From Methylomonas albis (GTDB lineage: Bacteria; Pseudomonadota; Gammaproteobacteria; Methylococcales; Methylomonadaceae): a DNA stretch of 64,000 nt. A model generated the notes under the pieces. It saw only the letters and a program-made list of their open reading frames with translations, made no database searches and was not told where the DNA came from. Shown piece after piece: positions 14,576-39,414 of the stretch; the stretch's first letter is position 1; every line of letters starts with the position of its first letter. The translations under genes and the position numbers were made by a program. The stretch spans positions 992,001 through 1,056,000 of the forward strand of contig NZ_JACXSS010000001.1 in assembly GCF_014850955.1 (NCBI RefSeq), written 5' to 3'.

Positions 14576-15217
14576 TTATCTTTTAGTTCTTTTCAGTATT
14601 CCAAAAAAACCTAACGCCGAAGCGAATAGCCAAAAAGCTGCCGGGGCTGGCACTACTGTAGCTACGATGCTATAGGTGTAACCACCTCCCCAGTAGTAGG
14701 TAGCATTTGGTTGATAGCCACTTAAGGTTATTTTTCCGTCTTGTATTTGTCCAGATAAGGTTGAGCTTGGTCCATTTTGAAAGCCGCTACAATACGTGTC
14801 AGCTGTTTTAGGACCAGCACAGGGAGTATCACTTCCTGAAAATTGGATTGGGGTTGTAAGCTCGCTATAAAAGCGCGGCAAATTGAACTCCGCAGGAAGA
14901 CCGTTCGCGATGATCACGGCGTTGGATATCTGTGCCCAATCGCTAGGGTTACTCCAAGAAAAATGATTGAAATTTAAAGTGAATGTCCCAGATACATTAT
15001 GCGTGACTGATGGAGAGAATCCACCTGCGCCACTTGAATCGAAACTTAATGTGCCGGGATTGTAAGTAACAGTACTATTTGCTGCATCAATAATATAGTT
15101 TTGGCTGGTCAGATAATCGCCGGCAGTGGCAGTAGATGCCGTGGCATCATGCATGCCTGCAAACAATATACTGACCATAGTAATGTAACGCACAGACATT
15201 ACTGAAATAAATTTCAT
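14576..15217 (-). CDS. PEP-CTERM sorting domain protein
   Basis: A 213-residue secreted protein with an N-terminal signal segment (ITMVSILFAGMHDATAST) and a C-terminal sorting signal: a VPAPAAFWLF motif, a hydrophobic helix and a basic KRTKR tail. In PEP-CTERM systems, exosortase recognises this tail in the inner membrane and the protein is delivered to the surface or extracellular matrix. The middle domain is Ser/Thr/Asn-rich and beta-like, with no further assignment. No exosortase gene is in this window, so it must be elsewhere if the system is functional. Confidence 0.85.
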   Translation of the reverse strand: MKFISVMSVRYITMVSILFAGMHDATASTATAGDYLTSQNYIIDAANSTVTYNPGTLSFDSSGAGGFSPSVTHNVSGTFTLNFNHFSWSNPSDWAQISNAVIIANGLPAEFNLPRFYSELTTPIQFSGSDTPCAGPKTADTYCSGFQNGPSSTLSGQIQDGKITLSGYQPNATYYWGGGYTYSIVATVVPAPAAFWLFASALGFFGILKRTKR

Positions 15218-15548
15218 AAGATTGTCCTAATTGATTATTGGTATAAGAAAAGCGAAAAACACTATTTTTTATAGCGCCCAAAATGGGTGGCTATAGAGTC
15301 GCATTCTAGGTCTTCAAAGTCAATACAATGAATAATTTGACGCTGTATCAATCTAGCGCTTGCTCAATTGAAATTATTATGAATTGTAAAGTAGCTCGTC
15401 GATGCGTTAAATAATTAAACGAATTTCTTTACTCTAAGATCCTTCGCAATCGGTGCGGTTGGTAAACTCATCGCACCCTACGCCGCTAAATCAGATAAAT
15501 CATGTAGGTCGGGTTAGGCCATAACCTTAAACCCGACCTAGTCATCTT
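15218..15548. other. Intergenic stretch with one palindrome
   Basis: This spacer separates two leftward genes. It holds the AT-rich upstream region of the PEP-CTERM gene and, at 15505-15515/15530-15540, a perfect 11-bp stem TAGGTCGGGTT/AACCCGACCTA with a 14-base loop. The stem lies just before the stop of bcp on the lower coordinate side and could end transcripts. No gene was found. Confidence 0.5.
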
Positions 15549-16037
15549 TTATGCCGCAGCCGGCGCGTTCAGTCCTTTGATAATATCCAACACTGCCTGC
15601 GCATGCCCCTCATGGTTGACGCCATACATGGCTTCGATCAGTTTGCCGTCTTTACCGATGATGAAGGTCGAACGGACGATTTTCCATTTTTTCACGCCGT
15701 CTTTTTCCACTTCCTGCCAGACGCCGTAAGCCTCGCAGACATCGCCGGAAGTGTCGGCCAGCAGTTGCACGTTCAGGCCGTATTTGGCGATGAAGTCTTT
15801 ATGGCTTTGGCAATCGTCCTTGCTCACGCCGATGATCACGGTGTCCTGGGCGTCGAATTCGCCGGCCAGCGCGGTAAAGTCATTGGCTTCGATGGTGCAG
15901 CCTGGGGTGTCGTCTTTGGGGTAGAAGTACAACACGACATTTTTCTCGTCTTGGTAATCGGACAGATAGATCAATGTATTGTCTTGATTGGCGGATCTAA
16001 AAAAAGGCGCTTCCTGGTTTTTTTGTAATTGTGACAT
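15549..16037 (-). CDS. bcp: Peroxiredoxin, Bcp/PrxQ type
   Basis: A thiol peroxidase that reduces hydrogen and organic peroxides using thioredoxin. The peroxidatic Cys47 lies in the family motif KDDTPGCTIEA. The residue five positions later, where E. coli Bcp has its second cysteine, is Asn52, so if a resolving cysteine exists it must be Cys76 or the one in GDVCEAYG. The 162-residue length is normal. It is a single gene with no obvious operon partner. Confidence 0.9.
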   Translation of the reverse strand: MSQLQKNQEAPFFRSANQDNTLIYLSDYQDEKNVVLYFYPKDDTPGCTIEANDFTALAGEFDAQDTVIIGVSKDDCQSHKDFIAKYGLNVQLLADTSGDVCEAYGVWQEVEKDGVKKWKIVRSTFIIGKDGKLIEAMYGVNHEGHAQAVLDIIKGLNAPAAA

Positions 16038-32864: not shown

Positions 32865-35800
32865 GTGATCACCTCACGGCGATCCAACTTCATTTTTCTT
32901 CAGCAGCATGATTCGCAACTGCTGAACTTGGGCTTGCTGGCGGAGAACTATTTCGCCGACGATCCCAACACCTGCTTGCTGAAACTACGCCAACTATCGG
33001 AGCTGTTGGCGCAACTGTTGGCGGCAAAAACCGGGCAATTTACCTCCCAAGATGAAAAACAATACGATTTACTCCGTCGTCTCCAAGATAGCGGAGTGCT
33101 GCCGAGGGAAGTATTTCAACTATTCGACGAAATCAGACGAGCCGGCAATGCTGCCAATCATGCCTTATCCGGTGATCATCGTTCCGCGCTTAGTACGCTT
33201 AAATTCACTTGGCAATTAGGATTGTGGTTTCATCGAGCCTTCAAGGACTCCAGTTACAAATCCGGCCCATTCCTGCCGCCGCAGCCACCGACCGACGAAA
33301 GCGCCGAACTTCGGGCCGAGCTGGAACGCTTGAACCAAGCCGTGACCGATTTCCAGTCCGCCCACCAGGACGTCGCGCAACAATTGCAGGCTGCCCAATC
33401 GCAGTTGCGGGAGGCCAAAGACGAGCGTTCTTTTTGGGAGCAATTGGCTGCCGAAGCTGAACAAGCTAAAGCTTCTCTGGAACAACGCTTGGCCGATCAA
33501 CAGACCATCGCTGCCGCCCAACCCAAAAGTACTGTCGTCCAATTCATCACCGCCGCCAACGACGCAGCTAAAGCAGTGCAATTGGACGAAGCCGATACCC
33601 GTAAGATCATCGATCAACAATTGCGCCAAGCCGGTTGGGAAGCTGATTCGGAAACCCTCAAATTCAACCAAGGTGCTCGCCCGGAAAAAAACCGCAACCG
33701 CGCGATTGCCGAGTGGCCCACCGAAAGCGGTCCCGCCGACTATGTTTTGTTTATTGGCCTGACGCCGGTGGCCGTGGTCGAAGCTAAACGCAAAAACGTC
33801 GACGTTTCCGGTGCCTTGCAACAAGGCAAACGCTATAGCCGAACCTTCAAACCCAGCGAGGAAACTACCTTGCCGGAACAAAACTGGGGCGATGACAACA
33901 GCTACCGAATTCCGTTCGTCTTTTCCGCTAATGGCCGTCCTTACCTTCGACAGCTGGCGACTAAAAGTGGCGTGTGGTTTTGCGATTTACGTCTGTCCGA
34001 TAATCTCAGCCATGCACTGGATGGTTGGTATACGCCGGACGGTTTGAAAGAACTGATCAAACGCGACGAAGTTAGGGCCCACGAAAAACTGGCCAATACG
34101 CCGTTCAACTACGGTTTTGAATTACGCTACTACCAACAAGAAGCCATTCTCGCGACCGAACAAGCCATTGGCGCCGGTCAACGCGAAATGCTGCTGGCCA
34201 TGGCGACCGGCACGGGCAAGACCAAAACCTGTATCGCCCTGATTTATCGTTTACTCAAGGCACAGCGATTTAAGCGGATTCTGTTTCTGGTGGATCGCTC
34301 GGCATTGGGGGAACAAGCCGCCAACGCTTTCAAAGACACCCGCATGGAAAATCTGCAAACCTTTGCCGATACCTTCGGCATCAATGAATTGGAAGAGCAA
34401 ACCCCGGACAACGATACCGCCGTGCAGATCGCCACGATACAGGGTATGGTGCAACGCTTGTTGTTCGCTGCCGAAAACGTCACACCGCCAGCTGTCGATC
34501 AATACGATTGCATCGTGGTTGATGAATGCCATCGTGGCTATTTGCTGGACCGCGAGCTGTCCGATACCGAAATGACCTTCCGTGGCTATGAAGATTACAT
34601 TTCCAAATATCGCCGAGTGCTGGATTACTTCGATGCCTACAAAATCGGCCTGACCGCCACGCCGGCTTTACACACCTCGCAAATCTTCGGTGCGCCGATT
34701 TACACCTACAGCTATCGGGAAGCCGTGATCGACGGTTATCTGGTGGACTACGAACCCCGATACAAATTCATACCGAGCTCTCCAGCAACGGCATTACCTG
34801 GAAAGTAGGCGAAGAACTCAAAGTCTACGATCCACGCCGCAACCAGATTGAATTATTCAAAGCCCCCGATGAAATCAAAGTCGATGTCGAAGACTTCAAT
34901 CGCAAGGTGATTACCGAATCGTTTAATCGTGTGGTCTGTGAATATCTGGCCAAAGAACTTGACCCTGCCTCACGCCAGAAAACCTTGATCTTCTGCGTCA
35001 ACGATGCCCACGCCGATCTGGTGGTCGATCTATTGAAAAAGGCCTTCGCCGCTGAATACGGTAGTGTCGAGGACGACGCGGTCATCAAAATCACCGGCGC
35101 CGCCGACAGACCTTTGCAACAAATCCGCCGCTATAAAAACGAGCGCCTGCCCAATGTCGCGGTCACCGTGGATTTGCTGACCACCGGCGTCGATGTCCCG
35201 GAAATTTGCAATCTGGTGTTCCTGCGTCGGGTCAACAGCCGTATCTTGTTCGATCAAATGCTCGGACGTGCCACGCGACTTTGCGATGCCATTGGCAAAG
35301 AAGCCTTCCGTGTCTTCGATGCCGTACAAATCTTCGCTGCCATCCAAAACATGACTGCGATGCGGCCGGTGGTAGTCGATCCAAAAATCAGCTTTAGCCA
35401 GTTGGCCGCAGAGTTGGTGTCTGTCAGCGATGATGACGCCCGCAGTTTGGTACGCGACCAGTTCATTGCCAAGCTGCAACGCAAAAAACGCCATTTATCC
35501 GAACAATCGGCACAAGACTTTGAAACCCGCGCCGGCATGAAGCCCGATGCTTTCATCCAAAAACTGCGGGCCATGCCACTCCCCGAAGTCGCCGCCTGGT
35601 TTACCCAAAATCCCGATCTGGGTGAAATTCTCGATCGTAAAAGCACAGGTTCTGCGCCGCCGATTTTCGTATCTGACCATGAAGACCAGCTCAAAAAGGT
35701 CGAACGTGGTTATGGCAACGCCCAAAAACCGGAAGATTATTTAAACGAATTTCGCGCCTTTATCCAAAGCCACAGCAACGACATTCCGGCGTTGACCACG

Positions 35801-36244
35801 GTCTTGACCCGTCCCCGCGAGCTGACCCGTAAGCAACTGCGTGAGCTGTTACTGGAACTGGATAAAGCCGGTTTCAGCGAAACCCATCTGGATACCGCTT
35901 GGCGGGAAATGACCAATCAAGACATTGCCGCGCGTATCGTCGGTTACATTCGCCAAGTCGCCATTGGCGACGCCTTGTTACCGTATAGCGAACGTGTCGA
36001 TCATGCTTTGCAAGCCATCCTGGCACAAAAAACCTGGAGTACTCCGCAGCGCGACTGGTTAAAGCGCATCGCCGCCCAAACCAAAGCCAATCTGCTGGTA
36101 GACCGCGAGGCACTGGACGATCCCGATCTGGTGTTCAAACGCGAAGGCGGCGGTTTCAATCGACTCGATAAACTCTTCAACGGCGAGTTGCAGCACGTTT
36201 TAGACGCGTTCAACGACTCGCTCTGGCAATCGGGCGTCGCTTGA
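32865..36244 (+). pseudogene. hsdR: Type I restriction endonuclease subunit R, frameshifted
   Basis: HsdR provides ATP-driven DNA translocation and cleavage for the type I complex. The first frame (32865-34808, GTG start) holds a DUF4145-like N-terminus, the nuclease core (VAVVEAKRK), Walker A (MATGTGKTKT), DECHRG box and TATP motif. The second frame (from about 34766, with its first ATG at 34907) holds the rest of the helicase, including RRVNSRILFDQMLGRATR, and the C-terminal coupling domain. The break is at 34764-34768: one base appears missing from a short A run, because the other frame continues as IHTELSSNGITW. The two parts together have normal length, about 1126 codons. Either a real inactivating mutation or a homopolymer read error is possible. 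Confidence 0.85.
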
Positions 36245-36534: not shown

Positions 36535-36629
36535 CCCCTCTTTGTAAAAGAGGGGTTAGGTGAGATTATTCAAATGAATCCCCCTCGATCCCCTTTATGC
36601 CCAGTCGGGTGTTTTTTCAAAGGGGGAGG
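36535..36629. repeat. Two GC-rich palindromes between the AbrB and PIN genes
   Basis: CCCCTCTTT/AAAGAGGGG (36535-36543/36547-36555) is a perfect 9-bp hairpin. At 36577-36629 a second copy of the AATCCCCC...TTCAAAGGGGG repeat family is present with a larger central region. Related palindromes occur inside the PIN and DUF559 genes downstream. Confidence 0.6.
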
Positions 36630-36652
36630 AACAACTGACTCATAATCAACGC

Positions 36653-37087
36653 ATGCAGGAACAAAACAACGCACCCCGCGTCGTTATCGACACCAATCTG
36701 GTGCTGTCGGCCCTGGTATTTGCCCAAGGTCGCGTCACGCCATTACGACGGGCCTGGCAAAACCAGCAGATTCAACCTTTGCTCTCCAAAACCACGGCAG
36801 CGGAATTGATTCGGGTATTGCAATATCCCAAATTCAAACTCAGTGCAGACGATCAGCAAGAACTGCTCGCCGATTACTTGCCTTATTGCCAAATTATGAA
36901 TCCCCCCTGGCCCCCCTTTTTCAAAGGGGGGGATTTTGCCGGTATTGCTCAGGTGTACTCGGACTTGGCTACAGCAGGCGAGGCCCAGGCCTTGATTACC
37001 GGCGACCAGGATTTACTCTGCCTGGCAGCCGGCTTTACGTGTCCCATTCTCACCGCAGAACAATTTTTACAAACGCTTAATACATGA
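36653..37087 (+). CDS. PIN-domain toxin-like protein carrying an embedded palindromic repeat
   Basis: The 144-residue product matches the PIN-family toxins (COG1569 type), expected to be an Mg-dependent ribonuclease controlled by the AbrB partner. Asp13 (VVIDTNLV) and Glu51 (TAAELIRVL) are typical active-site acids, and ITGDQDLL (about 115-122) gives the later acid. Residues 83-95 (NPPWPPFFKGGDF) are encoded by a GC-rich palindrome at 36899-36936. This is where relatives have the CRDxxD segment with another catalytic acid, so the enzyme is probably impaired. The stop codon overlaps the hsdM start as ATGA. Confidence 0.75.
   Translation: MQEQNNAPRVVIDTNLVLSALVFAQGRVTPLRRAWQNQQIQPLLSKTTAAELIRVLQYPKFKLSADDQQELLADYLPYCQIMNPPWPPFFKGGDFAGIAQVYSDLATAGEAQALITGDQDLLCLAAGFTCPILTAEQFLQTLNT
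36899..36936. repeat. GC-rich palindrome inside the PIN coding sequence
   Basis: AATCCCCCC at 36899-36907 pairs with GGGGGGATT at 36928-36936, with a second inner C-run/G-run stem. It is read in frame as residues 83-95 of the PIN protein. Confidence 0.75.
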
Positions 37088-38800
37088 CTACCAACGACAT
37101 CGTCGGCAAACTCTGGAACCTGTGCAACATCCTCAAGGATGACGGCGTTACCTATCACCAATACGTCACCGAGCTGACCTATATGCTGTTTTTAAAAATG
37201 GCGATGGAAACCGGCAGCGAAGAGCAATTGCCGGAAGGTTACCGCTGGTCGGACTTGGAAAGCCGCGCCGCGCCAGATAGATTGGAGTTTTACAAACGCT
37301 GAAAATCTTGGAAACGGAGCGCAAGCGAAGTGAAGATTTTTAGTCCCCGATAGCCGTAGCGCCGGGCGGGTTTTCGCAGCGAAGCGGAGAAAACCTGCAA
37401 GGCATCGCGACACGGCGTCAAGTCATGCGAGAGCCGATGTTTCGACCCCCTGTTGGGTCGAAACGAGGTGACGCGGACGAATCGGGGCCGCCGAAGGCAT
37501 AAACTGCCAGCAAATTTTTCGCGCTGAAATCGGATGGGACCCATTTCAGCTTTACCGAAAAATGCTGGCGCTCCTGATCCTGCTAATCCACCTCGGCAGC
37601 CACGGTTCAAACCTGGTTCAAGAGATATTCGCCAACGCCAGCAGCTTTATCAAAAAGCCCGCCACCTTATCCTCGCTGGTCGCGGAAATCGACAAACTGG
37701 ATTGGTACAGTGTGCATCGCGAAGACTTGGGCGACTTGTACGAAGGCTTGCTGGAGAAAAACGCCAACGAGAAAAAGTCCGGTGCCGGCCAATACTTCAC
37801 ACCACGAGCCTTGATCAATAGCATGGTGCGGGTCATGCAACCCACGCTCACCGACACCATTCAAGACCCGGCCGCGGGCACTGGCGGCTTCCTGATTGCC
37901 GCCAACCATTACCTGCGCACCCATAACGACTTCGACGCGCTCACCGACAGCCAGCAACGCAAATATCGCAACAGCACCTTTTACGGCATGGAGCACGTGC
38001 AAGACACCCACCGCTTGGCCTTGATGAATCTGATGTTGCACGGCATCGACGGCGGCATTCGTTACGGCGATACCCTCAGCCTGGAAGGTCAAGCCTTGCC
38101 CAAAGCCTCGTTGATCCTGACCAATCCGCCGTTCGGCACCAAAAAAGGCGGTGGCTTGCCCAGCCGCGACGACTTTACCTATCCCACCAGCAACAAACAG
38201 TTTTGCTTTCTGCAGCATATCTACCGGGGCTTGCAACCGGGCGGCCGGGCGGCGGTGGTTTTACCCGATAACGTGCTGTTCGAATCCAACGTCGGCACCG
38301 AGATTCGCCGCGATCTCTTGGACAAATGCAACCTGCACACCATCCTGCGCCTGCCGACCGGCATCTTTTACGCCCAAGGCGTGAAAACCAACGTGCTGTT
38401 CTTCAGTCGTGGTGACAGCGACAAAGGCAACACCCAGGAAACCTGGATTTACGACCTGAGCGCCAACATGCCGCAATTCGGCAAGCGCACTCAACTCACC
38501 GAGCAACACTTTGAGGAGTTCGAAGCGGCGTTTGGTAACGATCCAACCGGCAGCCCTGCCAGTTTGGCCAAGCGCATCGACCAGGGCGAAACCAGCCGTT
38601 TCCGCCGTTTCAGCCGCGAACAAATTGCCGAACGCGGCGATAGCCTGGACATCAGTTGGCTGAAAGACGACAGCGCCACTGAAGCCCAGGACTTGCCGGA
38701 ACCCGCCGAACTGGCTCAGGAAGCGATGACTGAACTGGATGCGGCGATGGAGGAATTGCGGGGGATTTTGGCGGAGTTGGGCATGGAGGAAGCGCTTTGA
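37084..38800 (+). pseudogene. hsdM: Type I DNA methyltransferase subunit M, interrupted
   Basis: HsdM methylates adenine at the type I site together with HsdS. The N-terminal helical domain begins at 37084 (VGKLWNLCNILKDDG) and stops at a TGA at 37300 after EFYKR. The conserved continuation resumes at 37580 (LLIHLGSHGS), so removing 280 bases restores the frame. The rest is intact: KSGAGQYFTPRALI, the SAM-binding DPAAGTGGF and the catalytic NPPF, then a C-terminal coiled tail. The large open part starting at 37562 lacks the N-terminal domain and is unlikely to work alone. Its end overlaps the DUF559 gene start. Confidence 0.85.
37300..37579. repeat. 280-base multi-hairpin insertion within hsdM
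   Basis: No protein domain is visible, but the DNA is strongly self-complementary: AAAATCTT/AAGATTTT (37302-37309/37333-37340), GGTTTTC/GAAAACC (37369-37375/37389-37395), a perfect 10-bp stem at 37439-37448/37455-37464, GCTGAAAT/ATTTCAGC (37523-37530/37543-37550), enclosed by GCCAGCA/TGCTGGC with TTTTTCG/CGAAAAA (37506-37521/37556-37569). Long-range pairs CCCCGAT/ATCGGGG (37345/37481) and GGAGCGC/GCGCTCC (37316/37568) tie it together. It looks like a compact non-autonomous mobile repeat or structured RNA element. Confidence 0.6.
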
Positions 38801-39414
38801 TCCTGCCGTATGACCAAGGTCTGAAAACCAACGCCCGCAAACTGCGCGGCGATATGACCGATGCCGAACAAAAACTCTGGAACCGTCTGCGCCGCAAGCA
38901 AATCAACGGCTGGCAGTTTTACCGGCAAAAGCCGCTGGGTCCTTACATCGTCGATTTTTATTGTGCGGCGGCCGGCTTGGTGGTTGAGCTGGACGGCAGC
39001 CAGCATTTTGAGGCCGAACACCAAGCCGCTGATCAGCGACGCGATGCGTATTTGCAAAACCTGGGCTTGCGAGTATTGCGCTTCGATAACCGGCAAGTGT
39101 TGTTGGAGCTGGATGCGGTGGTGGAGGTGATTAGTCGAATCCCCCCCGGCCCCCCTTTTTCAAAGGGGGGAGATAACTGCGGCCCTGGCGCCTCTGATTC
39201 TCCCGATGAAAACGATGGAGCTACCCCAGACTCAGCGCTGCCAATACCCACCCTTGGTAAAGATGTAGCCACCCCCGACCAATTCAACTCAATCCTCTCC
39301 TTTGAAAACGGGAGAGATAAGCCAGACCACTCCAACCTAATCCCCCCCTTTGAAAAAGGGGGGCTAGGGGGGATTCATACAAATAATACCGACAACGGCA
39401 AGGAGCCATCATGA
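38797..39414 (+). CDS. DUF559 endonuclease-like protein with a repeat-derived C-terminal tail
   Basis: DUF559 proteins have a very-short-patch-repair/PD-(D/E)XK-like fold. The conserved domain spans about residues 3-115: LPYDQGLKTNARKLRGDMTDAEQKLWNRLR, then YIVDFYCAAAGLVVELDGSQHF with nuclease-like acids, then LRVLRFDNRQVL. The likely start is TTG at 38797, overlapping the hsdM stop as TTGA; an ATG at 38854 would cut the domain. The tail from about residue 115 is made of read-through of two GC-rich palindromes and low-complexity sequence. The stop overlaps hsdS as ATGA, so it was coupled into the hsd operon. Its role there is unknown. Confidence 0.75.
   Translation: MILPYDQGLKTNARKLRGDMTDAEQKLWNRLRRKQINGWQFYRQKPLGPYIVDFYCAAAGLVVELDGSQHFEAEHQAADQRRDAYLQNLGLRVLRFDNRQVLLELDAVVEVISRIPPGPPFSKGGDNCGPGASDSPDENDGATPDSALPIPTLGKDVATPDQFNSILSFENGRDKPDHSNLIPPFEKGGLGGIHTNNTDNGKEPS
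39138..39172. repeat. GC-rich palindrome in the DUF559 gene, copy 1
   Basis: AATCCCCCC, a short spacer, a second C-run, TTTTTCAAA and a G-run form the same palindrome as in the PIN gene. It is translated as IPPGPPFSKGG. Confidence 0.7.
39339..39375. repeat. GC-rich palindrome in the DUF559 gene, copy 2 (inverted)
   Basis: AATCCCCCC followed by TTTGAAAAAGGGGGG and a terminal GGGGGGATT. This is the family member in the opposite orientation, read as IPPFEKGGLGG near the C-terminus of the DUF559 protein. Confidence 0.7.

Follow-up and report, generated by a model that had tools for sequence, protein, structure and literature searches.

A gene-less, structured repeat that interrupts hsdM in Methylomonas albis, its relatives in Methylococcales, and how such elements might move

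What is the sequence that splits an hsdM gene of Methylomonas albis, and by what route did it come to be there? The window analyzed here, a stretch of 64,000 nucleotides of contig NZ_JACXSS010000001.1 (positions 992,001 to 1,056,000 of the forward strand; assembly GCF_014850955.1), contains the gene in two pieces identified by Pfam domain matches, with HsdM_N (PF12161) in 37084-37299 and N6_Mtase (PF02384) 3′ of the insert. In a sister species (G008), hsdM is uninterrupted, a case that the original prediction had proposed to look for: it is a 493-aa open frame whose C-terminal part shares 94% amino acid identity with that of the window. The DNA of the window aligns with that of G008 through 37296 and again from 37577, with zero bases lost or repeated, and because the G008 DNA is continuous where the window is split (37296|37577), the element is 37297-37576 (CGCTG...CTCCTG), 280 nt. 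The original prediction had the length right but placed the insert at 37300-37579, three bases to the right of its true position; an argument from the reading frame is blind to a 3-base shift because both removals leave the same frame. That exact removal restores the hsdM frame is borne out by the empty site, but the junction reads FYK-ILLIHLG, not FYKR-LLIHLG as had been claimed.

The damage to the host gene can be read from the frames. The element contributes one further Arg and a stop to the N-terminal part of hsdM, and an ATG at 37562, in the right end of the element, is in frame with the rest of the gene (ORF 37562-38800, 412 aa), so that an N-terminally shortened methylase is possibly made from it. 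Nearby, hsdR is split into two ORFs, 32865-34808 with the HSDR_N/ResIII part and 34907-36244 with the Helicase_C/EcoEI_R_C part, and the restriction subunit thus looks broken too. Given that hsdR is also split, beside the interrupted hsdM, the type I restriction-modification system of this strain is, judging by its genes, probably dead. The locus contains yet another repeat, the short palindrome CCCCCCTTTTTCAAAGGGGGG, at 36898-36935, in frame within a PIN-domain gene (peptide NPPWPPFFKGGD), which recurs at approximately 36560-36630 and 39200-39400 as well as in the G008 locus.

The insert was predicted to lack a coding signal and, indeed, shows no sign of a gene when open frames are compared with shuffled sequences and across copies. 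One antisense frame is stop-free throughout in 19/19 copies of type A (92 codons in the window copy), but a stop-free stretch of 80 codons occurs in only 62 of 107 copies, in differing frames, and is attained by 175 of 500 shuffles. An antisense gene was therefore rejected, the open frame being not common to all copies and frequent in shuffles.

What the element does possess is structure (Table 1). The left end starts with CGCTG and continues as a hairpin that TAGTC closes. The sequence of this hairpin, P1, differs among subfamilies, with the pairing largely kept, and nested within it is a small hairpin whose two-base loop is variable. The loop (GCGNNAGC; element positions 26-27, window 37322-37323) varies among otherwise similar elements. 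The right end is a bulged hairpin, found in several sequences of similar layout across subfamilies, followed by 7 nt, and finishes with C-N-N-N in Methylomonas and in G156, a genome of another genus in the same family; by eye, the right end is without C at -4 in family f4 and in g13, g23, and g29 (some genera of the host's own family). Subterminal hairpins are thus present at both ends, and no inverted repeat was found at the extreme ends of the element.

Table 1. Positions in the window of the element, its parts, and the two pieces of hsdM
Feature	Position	Strand	Basis or detail
hsdM part before the insert	37084..37296	+	71 codons; PF12161 HsdM_N
Target base C at -4 (host ACAAA precedes the element)	37293	+	C at -4 in 113/117 copies, 365/372 in G156
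Whole element, family I, right end type A	37297..37576	+	280 nt; boundaries from G008; 17 further full-length copies, nearly identical, in the genome
Left-end hairpin P1 (GCTGAAAATCTTG / GAAGATTTTTAGT)	37298..37344	+	RNAalifold consensus, pair counts
Multi-branched conserved core (covariance model R1)	37340..37499	+	R1 match 199.5 bits, E 1.6e-46, for a sequence among those used to build R1
Core outer helix CCCCGAT / ATCGGGG	37345-37351 / 37481-37487	+	
Core hairpin P4, paired stem, variable tip	37361..37403	+	core-alignment pairs 27-73 to 36-63
Core hairpin P5 GTTTCGACCC/GGGTCGAAAC	37439..37464	+	stem in window copy; core-alignment pairs
Right-end bulged hairpin, type A	37506..37569	+	fold of window copy, alignment of copies
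Right tail GCTCCTG, 7 nt	37570..37576	+	last four bases start with C, as do the four bases preceding the left end
hsdM part after the insert (N6_Mtase)	37577..38800	+	PF02384

The expectation of more structure than chance would yield holds for the single copy and for the family. The minimum free energy of the window copy folded as RNA is -115.2 kcal/mol, compared to -93.45 (sd 4.99) for shuffled sequences (z -4.36; 0/200 as good), with z -3.90 for the reverse strand, and the fold of the core is backed by covariation. The consensus comprises 86 pairs over the 35 non-redundant elements that were left after redundancy removal, the alignment of copies having included 107 of the 117 extracted elements. 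In the core alignment A1, double changes are seen at 16 of the 45 pairs; in A2, which consists of 39 distinct, more divergent cores, compensatory changes are found at 32/45 pairs, and 97.4% of the cells are paired. The covariation score of A2 reaches 0.504; shuffles give 0.146, and sliding the partners gives 0.092 at most. Fitting A2 to the covariance model biases it in favour of the structure, yet the slid controls score far lower. The fold is real, and covariation is strong. The pairing of the two ends put forward in the original prediction (37316-37322 with 37568-37574) is present in the window copy but, by eye, is missing from the other right-end types aligned. As to the strand, G-U cells outnumber A-C cells 39 to 5 at pairs with a Watson-Crick majority, in an alignment fitted to the model, and 64 to 22 at pairs common to the folds of both strands, where the excess is weak by pair count (22 vs 19); these values favour the + strand as the one that folds.

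Is the element, then, a peculiarity of this locus? The anticipated further copies were found both in the own genome and across Methylococcales. The genome contains 26 matches, on both strands, of which 18 are full length at 97-100% identity. A DNA search yielded matches in 33 of 61 genomes, the own one included (30 of the 51 better ones), and a covariance model of the core, built on A1 and applied to at most 11 scored candidates per genome, matched in 135 of 251 Methylococcales genomes, representing 35 of 48 genera, again with the own one included. Among the named stretches with the core motif, 23/33 are titled Methylomonas, and two bear another or no taxon name (Pyrinomonadaceae and "bacterium"), which may be binning errors. 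Similar DNA is present in 4 plasmid records, from Methylomonas, Methylobacter, and Methyloprofundus, and the phage records searched contain no match to the element. A contig listed as viral, IMGVR_UViG_2781126804_000001 (L395-L397), has five matches to the core motif. Some copies are damaged: one (L024) is interrupted by an IS with a transposase ORF, and of another (L052) only the first ~72 bases remain; a lone right hairpin beside a Y1 pseudogene (L206) was set aside as a remnant. The element would appear to be old in the order Methylococcales and young in several genomes. No Rfam family matches it above chance, and we found no published report of it in the open-licence literature, although one might exist elsewhere.

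The copies share a target rule of unusual economy. C stands four bases upstream of the left end in 113 of 117 copies and five bases upstream in 3/117; these copies, extracted from the DNA matches, represent almost exclusively the own genus, together with G059. G156 provides an independent burst, and here C is at -4 in 365/372 copies and at -5 in 11/372. Positions -3 and -1 of the target disfavour G, the right flank carries no sequence signal, and distant members with the left end placed by eye follow the same C rule (uncounted). Where a fixed tetra- or pentanucleotide might be looked for 5′ of the left end, the copies have in common just the leading C of four bases, preceded by non-C. Insertion is exact as well: among the 324 copies in G156 with both ends, 121 have an uninterrupted counterpart in the DNA compared, mainly for repeated targets, and 117 of these show zero gap, nested copies included. 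There are neither terminal inverted repeats nor target site duplications, which rules out a MITE of the type with terminal inverted repeats. In the own genome, joining the flanks of several copies yields continuous proteins, by eye a short-chain dehydrogenase (L018), an IS transposase (L017), and a TonB-type receptor (L006). Copies sit within genes in either orientation, which excludes splicing as a general route to harmlessness.

G156 shows how far such an element can go and how it is put together. At least 148 core matches are present in this genome, and the 1.19 Mb examined contain 372 left ends, of which 152 are followed by the core of the window's element, 102 have the same left end with a different right part, 80 combine another left end with that other right part, 1 is mixed, and 37 have neither right part recognized within 300 nt. 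Part of these regions was chosen around known copies, and only C2, C7, and C11 were tiled for density; these three contigs, whole or nearly so, contain 174 copies in 608 kb, approximately 1 per 3.5 kb, which, extrapolated from the 608 kb to the genome, may amount to ~1,400 copies in 5.0 Mb, or ~8% of the DNA. The copies form three mosaic families with common left or right modules and nested copies (L345-L364, L398-L437), and because left and right parts occur in different combinations among these families, they are exchangeable modules. At several sites, two elements are joined end to end in composite units, for example, at ~15082-15634 and ~16559-17111 of L345.

The same burst ties the orientation of the copies to replication. 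In the 7 contigs of G156 whose mean GC skew is 0.03 or more in either direction, 265 of 329 copies follow replication polarity; contig C6 (mean skew -0.001, 29+/14-) was left out of this count, and including it by its sign gives 279/372. When the sign is taken from each 20-kb locus, the figure is 238/372 (p 8e-8), and in the 16 loci with skew and gene direction in conflict, the copies follow the skew in 61 of 97 cases (p 0.014). In Methylomonas, where polarity was determined from dnaA and dif, eight of the 14 genomes with a located dif were used; pooled, these eight, the own one included, give 45/81 among the copies listed (p 0.37). The own genome has no bias (15/26), and only one genome of the eight, G017, is biased (10/11); older copies and rearrangements could be blurring the signal. 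For IS608 and ISDra2, according to PMC5371812, excision is more efficient from the lagging-strand template, which insertion also prefers, and orientation mirrors replication.

Taken together, these observations give support at once to both halves of the original prediction, a non-autonomous mobile element or a structured RNA, by way of the copies, the empty hsdM site, and covariation; of the contrary outcomes that it named beforehand, namely, a lack of both copies and covariation or an element native to relatives of hsdM, none appeared. We lean, with moderate confidence, towards a non-autonomous structured element that integrates into single-stranded DNA and is moved in trans, likeliest by a putative HUH (Y1-like) enzyme. 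Insertion is exact, without target duplication or loss, 3′ of 5′-D-C-N-N-N on the structured strand, and this exactness, along with the lack of inverted ends, the end hairpins, the C motifs on the left and right, and the polarity in G156, suggests HUH-type single-strand movement as PMC6006769 describes it. The putative enzyme, supplied in trans, would recognize the folded single strand and would make its cuts after C-N-N-N, one at the target and one where the element ends on the right; the element would then be joined into single-stranded DNA, preferably the lagging-strand template, and the conserved core might be a docking or processing structure. HUH (Y1) transposases such as IS200/IS605 and TnpA-REP work on this principle. 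The exchange of modules between families is what such movement should produce, provided that any left end may team up with a right end lying downstream of it. Against this reading stand the single fixed target base, unlike the motifs of IS200/IS605, the absence of polarity bias in the own genome and in the eight genomes pooled, and the right ends without C at -4 in some other genera. Known members of IS200/IS605 have target motifs with more than one fixed base.

Candidate partners are plentiful, if not distinctive. Of the 37 genomes of the genus, 35 have Y1 genes, and Y1_Tnp occurs in 16/16 tested genomes with several copies, which is compatible with HUH movement and not specific to it. Among 60 Y1 loci, those with the strongest Y1 hits, 3 contain R1 matches (E<=0.01), all in G156 or G176, compared to 1 of 58 controls. 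In G242 (L438) and in the own genome (L440), a truncated IS200-like tnpA that reads towards an element (1862-2142 and 2143-2405, respectively) breaks off exactly at that element's right end, and the far side of the element shows no further piece of the gene; tnpA genes that stop at right ends of elements may reflect chance or be a hint. No gene-bearing copy was found, the 22 left ends of the own genome (at most 3 mismatches) all belonging to elements or remnants. TnpB (PF07282) is found in 3 of 37 genomes of the genus and is absent from the own one; matches to RRXRR (IscB), in 18/37 genomes and none in the own genome, are confined to short ORFs and to the beginning of the model, and IscB was not seen in the 3 RRXRR loci inspected. 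TnpB or IscB as a general partner was accordingly ruled out for want of genes. The RRXRR-like short ORFs (L166-L195) match approximately the first 50 positions only, with a conserved Methylomonas gene neighbourhood in the three loci inspected.

A Y1 enzyme alone leaves the conservation of a 160-nt core unaccounted for, and because the HUH reading does not explain this core, we retain an RNA intermediate as possible, albeit unlikely. In such a scheme, the element would be transcribed into a structured RNA, and a reverse transcriptase provided in trans would bring this RNA into single-stranded DNA at replication forks, by reverse transcription or reverse splicing; the element would then be a SINE-like retroelement of bacteria or a novel ribozyme. 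The complex fold, the strong covariation, and the excess of G-U over A-C on the + strand all speak for it; reverse splicing also fits exact insertion without target site duplication, template switching could produce chimaeric families, and the retrotransposition of group II introns enters the lagging-strand template as well. However, neither group I nor group II intron models, nor any other Rfam family, match the element, the strand test is weak by pair count, and G-T pairs can form in single-stranded DNA too. Nor could such an RNA find its target through a base-pairing guide, because near-identical copies lie at unrelated sites with one base in common. That a gene-less, order-wide structured RNA represents a new class of retroelement or ribozyme, a counterpart of SINEs that inserts exactly at forks with a single C as target, seems to us rather doubtful.

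Other DNA routes, rolling-circle movement of the IS91/Helitron kind or a tyrosine recombinase, are improbable: the lack of terminal inverted repeats and target duplications and a hairpin set back from the right end by a short, constant distance would suit them, but the target sequences of IS91 differ from that of the element, whose fixed base is on the left, not beside the end of the right hairpin, and a tyrosine recombinase would be expected to leave behind a coupling sequence, shared or variable. A scaffold of an RNA-guided nuclease (omega-RNA-like, with TnpB or IscB), in which the flank would serve as guide, C-N-N-N as target-adjacent motif, and the nuclease would help to keep the copies, has a resemblance in layout on its side, given that an omega-RNA is a structured RNA that ends at the border of its element by a variable flank, with the motif on the opposite side; the scarcity of TnpB and IscB genes described above, both missing from the own genome, and the lack of a match to HEARO in Rfam make it very improbable. 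To a self-splicing intron, or an intervening sequence, with hsdM still functional despite it, we give almost no credence: the frame is restored by exact removal, but copies lie in genes in both orientations, which introns do not tolerate, and no intron family matches, the antisense copies refuting an intron as a general property of the element.

The systems closest to the preferred reading, HUH-type movement of single-stranded DNA, are IS200/IS605 and their non-autonomous derivatives, which go by the name PATE-like. The element resembles these in lacking terminal inverted repeats and target duplications, in its end hairpins, in the short motif 5′ of the left end with a similar one at the right end, and in its polarity in G156; it differs in having one fixed motif base, a large conserved core, no polarity in the own genome, and no tnpA or tnpB found with the same ends. 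HEARO and omega-RNA are mobile structured RNAs of a length similar to that of the element, which, unlike them, is without an Rfam match, in a genome without a match to IscB or TnpB. With REP/REPIN sequences and RAYT (TnpA-REP), the element shares the condition of a gene-less, high-copy hairpin repeat in genomes that encode Y1 proteins. In PMC6006769, REP/REPIN are hairpins of 21-65 nt with a GT[AG]G foot near a RAYT gene; measured against that description, the element, at 280 nt, differs in its left end, CGCTG without GTAG/GTGG, and in inserting inside genes. Outside G156 and G176, moreover, it was not found beside the Y1 genes examined, with the exception of the two cases of truncated tnpA. 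The nearest printed description seen, also in PMC6006769, is that of TnpA Y1 class 3 with "CnGA" foot structures, to which the element is likened by description only.

A further parallel comes from another host, the bcr1-type repeats, some of which are structured RNA. In PMC6542083, these repeats of the Bacillus cereus group are 100-400 bp long, dispersed, endowed with mobile features, and confined to one taxon, their mobility being tied to TTTAT repeats. The element is likewise a dispersed, taxon-restricted repeat, but in another host and with another target rule. It is, in short, a gene-less mobile repeat absent from Rfam, and it stands a reasonable chance of being new in kind. Discovery of the enzyme would open up a mobile system with nearly unrestricted targeting and permit a direct test of single-stranded DNA versus RNA as the mobile form. 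Bacterial non-autonomous elements usually retain short ends only; the present one is unusual in its covarying multi-branched core in 35 genera, its one-base target, and the swapping of its ends among families.
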